DNA from: Acidobacteriota bacterium
GTDB taxonomy: Bacteria > Acidobacteriota > Aminicenantia > Aminicenantales > Saccharicenantaceae
Assembly (NCBI GenBank): GCA_028749115.1
Contig: JAQURD010000013.1
Span: 1-39,657 of the forward strand
Direction of reading: 5' to 3'
DNA: 39,657 nt
Both the position numbers and the translations under genes were made by a program. Numbering within the stretch: the stretch's first letter is position 1; each line of letters starts with the position of its first letter. The notes beneath the pieces were generated by a model. That model was not told the DNA's origin, made no database searches, and was given only the letters and a program-made list of their open reading frames with translations. This document shows positions 18,076 through 19,695 of this stretch, piece by piece.

Positions 18076-18547
18076 GATGGCTCCTTCTTAATATTTAGCC
18101 TTTATCTTTAATCTTCTTATTCTATAAACATCCATGCCATTTTTAAAGTTGTCATTCTCCCCGGGGAAAACCCTCAAAAATCCGTTTATGAACTTAACCG
18201 GATTTTTGCCTGGTTCAGTCGCCCAGACCTCCCCTGGCTTTTTCTATTTTAACTTTTCTGTCAGGTTTAGCACAGTTCTGACCGTTTCCCCTGGGCAGAT
18301 GTTATTTTTTAGCCCGGCCGGGCAAGGGCCTGACCGGTTATTCCCCTAACTCTAGAAACACTTAATTTTAACAACCTCATTTTGATGGTAACTAATTTAT
18401 CATCCAGGGTTGTTTTTAGCAATAAATTCAGGTCGGAATTCCGGTTTAACAGGGCAGATAATGAGTTAATAGACTGGTTGTTTAAGATTATTTATAAGAA
18501 TTTTAAAAAAGTTTTCAACCTTAAGGCCCCATCAACGACTAAACAAG
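18076..18547. other. Non-coding gap between the GH2 gene and the guaA leader
   Basis: No convincing gene. It contains an inverted repeat AAAAATCCG (18176-18184) / CGGATTTTT (18199-18207) with a 14-base loop that could act as a weak bidirectional terminator, and a 12-base palindrome GCCCGGCCGGGC (18312-18323). Neither can be tied to a gene. The region between 18330 and 18540 is AT-rich and featureless. Confidence 0.5.
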
Positions 18548-18553
18548 TATAAT
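18548..18553 (+). promoter_or_regulatory. -10 box just before the structured guaA leader
   Basis: A perfect TATAAT. With the usual 6-8 base spacing, the transcript would begin at about 18560, exactly at the first strand of the predicted three-way-junction RNA. No good -35 is visible 16-18 bases upstream, so the promoter may need an activator or be weak. Confidence 0.5.
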
Positions 18554-18560
18554 CGCTCCA

Positions 18561-18637
18561 GAGGAGGGCAGGGAGAAGGACCGTCGGGGGGTGTCCTTCT
18601 CCGGTGGGTCTTACGCCTTGGATGGAAGGCCCTCCTC
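18561..18637 (+). ncRNA. Predicted three-way-junction RNA in the guaA leader (candidate riboswitch or small RNA)
   Basis: The 77-base element folds into three stems. P1 pairs GAGGAGGGC (18561-18569) with GCCCTCCTC (18629-18637), 9 perfect pairs closing the element. P2 pairs GGAGAAGGAC (18572-18581) with GTCCTTCTCC (18593-18602), 10 perfect pairs. P3 pairs GGTG (18603-18606) with CGCC (18614-18617) through one G-U, which works only on the plus strand. A TATAAT lies seven bases before P1. About three bases after P1, TTCCTCC (18640-18646) is the exact complement of GGAGGAA (18753-18759), the guaA ribosome-binding site, so it could hide that site. It does not match the purine, ZTP or THF riboswitch consensus as I remember them. 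It could instead be an independent small RNA or a repeated palindromic element. Confidence 0.5.
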
Positions 18638-18762
18638 TCTTCCTCCTTAATATGCTATATTTTGACTCTGGAATCAACTAAAAATTATTACAACAAATAT
18701 TTCTTGGACTTAATTCTTCATCTTGATGTATGATTTTTATACCAACATGCCTGGAGGAAAAC

Positions 18763-19695
18763 ATGGATGCTAAAAAGTTTATTGACAAGCAGGTAGCAGA
18801 AATAAAAAGAACAGTCGGCCAGCATAAGGCCATATCAGCTCTATCAGGGGGAGTTGATAGCTCAGTGGCTACTATTCTGGCTCATCGGGCTCTTGGCCCT
18901 CAGCTTAAAGTAATATTTATAGATGATGGCCTGATGCGGGAGAATGAGCCAGACGAGGTCAAGGCAGCTTTCGCCCAGCTTGGCCTGGACCTTGAGGTGA
19001 TTGAAGCCAGAGCCGAGTTTTTTGAGGCTTTGAAAGGGAAGATAGATCCTGAAGAAAAAAGGAAAGCCTTTCGCTATGCCTTTTATAAAGTCTTTGGCCG
19101 CGAGGTTATTAAGAGCCAGGCCCGTTTTCTCATTCAAGGGACAATCGCCGCCGATATTATTGAAACCCGGGGAGGTATTAAGACCCAGCATAACATCCTG
19201 GAGCAGATCGGAATTGATACCGAGAAAGGCTTCGGTTTTAAGATTATTGAGCCATTGAAGGAGCTCTTTAAACATGATGTCCGCCAGGTTGGCAGAGAAC
19301 TGGGTTTGCCCGAGGTAATTTTCCAGAGAATGCCTTTTCCAGGGCCAGCTCTGGCTACCAGGATAATAGGAGAAGTCACTCCAGAAAGGGTAGAATTAGT
19401 TAGAAAAGCAACCAGGATAGTCGAAGAAGAACTGGCGCCTCTCCGGCCATTTCAAGCCTTTGCTGTCTTGATGAATGATATGGCCACGGGCCTGGCTGAA
19501 GGAAAAAGAAAATTCGGGCAAATTATAATTATCAGGTCAGTTGAAAGCCAGGATGCTTTGACTGCCCAGCCTACACCGGTTCCCTGGGATGTCCTGACCA
19601 AGCTGGCCAGGAGAATTACGAGTGAAGTTCCCTCAGTGGTCAGGGTAGCTTATGAGATAACCTCCAAACCTCCGGCCACCATTGAATACATTTAA
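18763..19695 (+). CDS. guaA: GMP synthetase, ATP-pyrophosphatase subunit (stand-alone)
   Basis: A 310-residue protein matching only the C-terminal two-thirds of the usual bacterial GuaA. The PP-loop LSGGVDSS (27-34) for ATP pyrophosphatase is followed by FIDDGLMRENE, a QGTIAADIIE segment, FPGPALATRI and the dimerisation domain ending KPPATIEYI. It adenylates XMP and, with ammonia, gives GMP. The glutaminase (GATase) domain that normally precedes it is absent, and the preceding 680 bases hold no such gene. This is the split arrangement best known in archaea (guaAa/guaAb), so a separate glutaminase is expected elsewhere. GGAGG (18753-18757) six bases before ATG 18763 fixes the start, not the in-frame ATG at 18730. 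The leader contains a predicted structured RNA able to pair with this ribosome-binding site. Confidence 0.92.
   Translation: MDAKKFIDKQVAEIKRTVGQHKAISALSGGVDSSVATILAHRALGPQLKVIFIDDGLMRENEPDEVKAAFAQLGLDLEVIEARAEFFEALKGKIDPEEKRKAFRYAFYKVFGREVIKSQARFLIQGTIAADIIETRGGIKTQHNILEQIGIDTEKGFGFKIIEPLKELFKHDVRQVGRELGLPEVIFQRMPFPGPALATRIIGEVTPERVELVRKATRIVEEELAPLRPFQAFAVLMNDMATGLAEGKRKFGQIIIIRSVESQDALTAQPTPVPWDVLTKLARRITSEVPSVVRVAYEITSKPPATIEYI

Follow-up and report, generated by a model that had tools for sequence, protein, structure and literature searches.

A structured element upstream of a stand-alone guaA gene is a candidate small noncoding RNA locus of the Aminicenantales

The window analyzed here, a 39,657-nucleotide stretch of DNA from an Acidobacteriota bacterium, carries a gene for a stand-alone GMP synthetase subunit (guaA) that is preceded by a strongly folding element. 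Is this element a regulatory leader of guaA, as the initial annotation proposed, or a locus that functions by itself? We refer to the structured core as D1 and list its parts and surroundings in Table 1. It spans 77 nt and consists of a 9-pair outer stem (P1), a 10-pair inner stem (P2), and a conserved strand, GCCUUGGAU. The core folds at -41.3 kcal/mol (z = -2.98), and 1 of 200 shuffled sequences folds as well. The fold is unremarkable for positions 18555-18660 (z = -1.49; 15 of 200 shuffles as good) and for the whole 223-nt region upstream of guaA (z = -1.56; 18 of 200). A covariance model, R1, recognizes D1 in the window with an E value of 4.2e-11, the window sequence being among those used to build the model.

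Table 1. Positions of D1, its stems, and neighboring features in the window, with the loci of two associated motifs
Feature	Position or loci	Strand	Evidence or remark
Structured core D1	18561..18637	"."; plus favored in Saccharicenans	Model match, covariation, fold
Outer stem P1, 5' arm GAGGAGGGC	18561..18569	+	Covariation
Outer stem P1, 3' arm GCCCTCCTC	18629..18637	+	
Inner stem P2, 5' arm	18572..18581	+	Covariation and fold
Inner stem P2, 3' arm	18593..18602	+	Covariation and fold
Conserved strand GCCTTGGAT, between P2 and the P1 3' arm	18615..18623	+	Near-invariant in two alignments
Rightward promoter-like element TTTTCAA-N17-CGACTAAA	18512..18543	+	Ends about 18 nt before D1; conserved in genus
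TATAAT	18548..18553	+	Not conserved; probably coincidental
TTCCTCC, ribosome-site complement	18640..18646	+	Private to own genome among 15 genus loci
Leftward promoter-like element: -35 TTGATT (18677-18672), 17 nt, -10 CATATT (18654-18649)	18649..18677	-	Conserved in genus
Promoter-like element of guaA, TGGACT-18-TATGAT	18705..18734	+	Scan; conserved in 15-row genus alignment
guaA, stand-alone GMP synthetase ATP-pyrophosphatase subunit	18763..19695	+	310 aa; GMP_synt_C; TIGR00884 guaA_Cterm over cut-off
D2 copies	L166, L171, L176, L181, L186 (own genome); others such as L167-L191		
NrdR-like box loci, promoter pointing at D1	L052, L069, L094, L105, L108, L109, L115-L118, L123, L125		

The initial annotation had described three stems and called for covariation among relatives. 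We assembled 64 D1 matches, which represent 60 distinct sequences, and counted how their stem positions pair. Among the distinct sequences, 92.6% of stem cells are paired, compared with 59 to 70% when the partner strand is slid, and 37 cells are changed on both sides, compared with 13.4 after shuffling and 0 to 5 after sliding. Six pairs show changes on both sides, a weak measure that 25 of 500 shuffles also reach. P1 is paired in 94.5% of cells, with 4 of its 10 pairs changed on both sides, and the modeled part of P2 in 89.8%, with 2 of 7 pairs so changed; these values come from an alignment built to fit the model, a procedure that favors pairing, and part of the genus's inner stem is shifted in it by one position. 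These compensatory changes support P1 and P2 as real stems. The 4-pair third stem is present in the window fold but lacks conservation: stems with four or more pairs that end 0 to 4 nt before the conserved CUUGG occur in 9 of 59 distinct sequences versus 9.2 after shuffling, and with a narrower offset in 5 of 57 versus 4.1 expected. The G-U pair that had been taken to assign the element to the plus strand is a U-G pair within this third stem and is uninformative for the family.

D1 is shared among relatives. Across the stand-alone guaA loci of the window's own genome and its relatives, D1 lies upstream of the gene in 24 of 30. No D1 match precedes guaA at L020, L022, L024, L025, or L026, of which L024 retains an apparent truncated remnant; at L016 the available sequence reaches just 37 nt upstream of the gene. 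Palindromic repeats containing forms of GGGGTCA or GGGGACA occur close to D1, or in the interval that separates it from guaA, at L019, L023, L027, and L030. Run against 142 genomes of the class, the covariance model finds D1 in 58, with one match each in most, under the stricter filters of searches over more than 40 genomes, at which weak matches are lost. All of these carriers belong to the order Aminicenantales (58 of the 94 order genomes, G000-G093), and none to the 48 class genomes beyond it; the five lowest-scoring matches (L126-L130) are degenerate, and some are perhaps not real. In a phylum-wide sample of 396 genomes, D1 is likewise present in 20, all within Aminicenantales. A pattern scan of 84,980 species genomes returned 35 loci, 33 of which are titled Aminicenantes, Saccharicenans, or Acidobacteriota, save one labeled "uncultured bacterium" and one labeled "Clostridiales"; several titles give Candidatus Saccharicenans, the name used here for the genus. 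The Nitrospira match (L033) is without the inner stem and looks like a chance match. A contig titled Syntrophaceae contains a strong copy (L052:4336-4406), perhaps in misbinned Aminicenantes DNA.

The copy number speaks against a dispersed palindromic repeat, which the initial annotation had named as the main alternative. In the window's own genome, blastn detects one full copy and one 15-base chance match, and the model detects one match; two or three matches are found in G059, G060, G074, and G075, and three is the maximum in any of the 142 genomes. D1 resembles scattered palindromic repeats in being palindromic and intergenic, but it differs from them in occurring about once per genome, in the conservation of its unpaired strand, and in the covariation of its stems.

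We compared D1 with known RNAs. At gathering thresholds, Rfam finds only tRNAs in the window and 20 loci, bearing out the earlier remark that the element does not fit the guanine, ZTP, or THF riboswitch classes. At a low threshold, positions 18450-18850 yield snoRNA, microRNA, and lncRNA matches of chance strength and no riboswitch, and focused low-threshold scans give matches of chance strength only, all far below the cut-offs. Membership of D1 in a guanine, ZTP, or THF riboswitch class or in another Rfam family is thus rejected for want of a match. Like these riboswitches, D1 in many genomes precedes a purine gene; unlike them, it is not tied to that gene. Signal recognition particle RNA is rejected as well, with a separate such RNA present in 34 of 40 genomes, including the window's own (contig C29), as is a CsrA-titrating RNA, with CsrA over the cut-off in 0 of 60 genomes and one weak match. 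No 6S RNA (RF00013) was found in 40 genomes by a search that a very divergent 6S RNA may escape, and the RF00013 model, with 187 positions, is much longer than D1. The abstracts that we searched contain no report of this element, and those retrieved for Aminicenantes together with noncoding RNA hold nothing on RNA. D1 is put forward as a new, lineage-specific candidate family without an Rfam counterpart.

Promoter-like elements bracket D1 on both sides. The TATAAT that had been read as its promoter is present, but it has no acceptable -35 element and, among 15 genus loci, stands at that place only in the window. Further upstream, TTTTCAA-N16/17-CGACTAAA ends 18 to 19 nt before D1 in 15 of 16 Saccharicenans loci and 16 nt before D1 in L111 and L119. 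The rightward motif thus precedes D1 in 17 of 64 loci. It was matched in 61 of 12,800 windows placed at random in these loci, a background that includes windows overlapping the motif. TTTTCAA-N16/17-CGACT also occurs at seven other places in four genomes (L195, L196, and L199-L203), where the longest ORF lies 6 to 220 nt away by script and likely start codons 31 to 51 nt away by eye; the genes represent about three families, some found in more than one genome. Since a same-strand ORF follows in all seven cases and a reversed control of the motif is sparsely matched (1 match versus 9, and 0 versus 4), the Saccharicenans motif looks like a real promoter class, perhaps the target of an alternative sigma factor.

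On the other side of D1, a leftward element of the form TTG...-17-.A...T with a score of at least 8 is present at 44 of 59 distinct loci, compared with 7.9 expected from Markov-resampled flanks. Rightward elements of the sigma70 type reach this score at 21 loci versus 10.1 expected, loci with a short left flank being scored as having none. At 12 of 63 loci, a TTGAC promoter upstream of D1 is accompanied by two NrdR-like boxes 30 to 33 nt apart, according to what we take to be the NrdR consensus; block shuffles predict 0.45 such pairs, and none occurs downstream of D1. The nrdR gene itself (TIGR00244) is encoded in the window, and no ribonucleotide reductase gene was noticed by eye among the genes following D1 at these loci.

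Outside the genus, an operator-like motif, D2, often lies upstream of the leftward promoter of D1. D2 is 66 bp long and has 1 to 36 matches per genome in all 94 order genomes. We examined 28 copies among about 120 matches listed from five genomes: D2 lies upstream of genes in reverse orientation, the 26 copies with both neighbors called all having a 5' neighbor of opposite strand, and 20 of 27 copies end in a promoter -35 element, compared with 7.7 expected. The genes that follow include, by eye, response regulators and pilus-like genes. Its own pair changes are modest, and a test of an alternative pairing within D2 gave no support. D2 is thus probably a promoter-side operator of a large regulon, and we rejected it as a second RNA domain of a D1 transcript because it is multicopy, has opposite-strand 5' neighbors, and ends in a promoter -35 element.

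Runs of U beyond the stems, defined as at least 5 T in 9, are distributed by lineage. On the plus side, 14 of 16 genus loci and 14 of 48 others have such a run after D1 (background, 0.19); on the minus side, it is found in 0 of 16 genus loci and in 22 of 48 others (background, 0.17). The D1 of the window has no clear U-run after P1, and a terminator scan of the window called none, the loop of D1 being above the loop limit of the scan.

The conservation of D1, its two stems, its promoter-like flanks, and its separability from guaA are direct observations. We think it somewhat more probable than not that D1 forms the core of an independent locus for a structured small noncoding RNA, present once in most carrier genomes; this reading explains the borders, the stems, the conserved strand, the promoters, and the U-runs together. 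Because D1 is kept while neighbors and promoters change, its function most likely resides in the element and not in its surroundings. Trans-acting bacterial small RNAs are intergenic, structured, and furnished with an intrinsic terminator. D1 is comparable in being short, in having a promoter-like element, in ending with a stem and then U's at most genus loci, and in being a lineage-specific single locus; it differs in having no Rfam family match and in its facing promoter-like element.

That such an RNA is made, where it ends, and which strand carries it we infer from sequence. In Saccharicenans, an alternative-sigma-like rightward promoter would initiate transcription some 10 nt ahead of the core, and the GC-rich P1 with the following U's would double as a terminator, giving a plus-strand RNA of about 90 to 100 nt whose end would precede the promoter of guaA itself. 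In the genus, the plus strand is favored by the rightward element and the U-run. The second, facing promoter may make an antisense RNA, and in other lineages the leftward promoter would be the stronger candidate, often with an upstream operator-like motif. The conserved GCCUUGGAU strand may be recognized by a target RNA or protein, so that the RNA would act in trans. Several findings count against a small RNA: D1 was not detected in 36 of the 94 genomes of the order, the window lacks a clear U-run, plus-side U-runs are scarce outside the genus, and the count of pairs changed on both sides is a weak measure of covariation. So do the association with guaA and the equality of the two strands, described below.

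Production of a sense/antisense RNA pair from face-to-face promoters, starting within about 10 to 20 nt of either end of D1, is a possibility that we rate as rather improbable. The core is near-symmetric, and the two RNAs would be perfect complements, each beginning with a similar outer fold. The type of the rightward promoter would differ between lineages (alternative-sigma-like in Saccharicenans and NrdR-box-bearing in others), and the leftward promoter would carry a D2 operator outside the genus, as the core is kept.

We consider it unlikely that D1 is a cis-regulatory leader, co-transcribed with guaA from the rightward promoter, in which D1 and the U-run act as a regulated terminator. The U-run of the genus loci is consistent with it, as is gene order: a same-strand guaA begins within 600 nt of D1 in 39 of 64 loci, and in 4 more (L098, L101, L104, and L112) guaA lies further downstream with a gene between. 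It was not found in the fetched flank of 21 of 64 loci, several of these flanks being short. Across 60 genomes, tabulated by hand, 34 have both D1 and guaA, 12 only guaA, 6 only D1, and 8 neither (Fisher p 0.05), and the three genus genomes without D1 (G006, G008, and G011) are also missing the stand-alone guaA. Against a leader, D1 is kept in genomes for which the search yielded no stand-alone guaA (G028, G034, G044, G046, G051, and, with a weak match, G047), and the next gene is convergent at L085, L094, L114, and L120. The distance from D1 to guaA ranges from 126 to 518 nt, and guaA's own promoter-like element sits after D1. The proposed occlusion of the ribosome-binding site also falls away: TTCCTCC is indeed the exact complement of GGAGGAA (18753-18759) ahead of the guaA ATG, but a 7-nt complement exists in 1 of 15 genus loci, and the longest elsewhere is 5 nt. 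The link between D1 and guaA is common and looks like shared synteny; the two are associated, not tied.

Other gene contexts, which are approximate because a simple ORF caller was used, vary. D1 precedes a fucose-isomerase-like gene at L111 and apparently at L119, and at L004 such a gene follows guaA by eye. A DUF1846 gene comes after D1 at L098 (family confirmed), L102 (similar sequence), and L101 and L104 (by length only), and guaA is next after it where the flank is long enough. As for the guaA product of the window, domain searches found no glutaminase domain in it. A second GMP synthetase match in the same genome (G000:C13:70818-71762) lies in a 513-aa frame, the length of a full GMP synthase, and this pairing of a stand-alone subunit with a match in a 513-aa frame recurs in the order.

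The strand signals bear on a different reading, in which D1 is a structured DNA site between facing promoters that either binds a regulator or recombinase or extrudes hairpins. Departures from Watson-Crick pairing are about equally G-U and A-C (8 and 7 in P1; 10 and 9 in the outer part of P2), and the two strands fold equally well (mean z, -2.68 for plus and -2.79 for minus), with plus better in 29 of 60. A selected RNA would be expected to show a preference, and the bracketing promoters also suit a DNA site. However, 77 bp is long for one operator, most carrier genomes have only one match, and the leftward element, where found, always points at D1 from the same side, that side alone having been scanned. 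We regard a DNA site as quite unlikely.

It is more doubtful still that D1 is a bidirectional intrinsic terminator that merely parts neighboring transcripts. The GC-rich P1 would suit this role, as would the U-runs on the plus side in the genus and on the minus side in others; however, a terminator could do without the conserved inner stem, the conserved GCCUUGGAU strand, and bordering promoters. A minus-strand leader of the gene left of D1 is very improbable: a leftward promoter-like element is present and many loci have a minus-strand gene to the left, in the genus mostly 110 to 180 nt away, but the left gene varies by lineage (phosphoglucomutase-like, M20-peptidase-like, and others, by eye), and in many loci a plus-strand gene ends left of D1.

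The analysis of D1 corrects the tempting reading of a guaA riboswitch. If the reading of facing promoters is right, this would be an unusual sense/antisense locus in which regulation shifts between lineages and the RNA stays. As a stand-alone structured small RNA locus, D1 would give this order of uncultured bacteria a further candidate family of RNAs.
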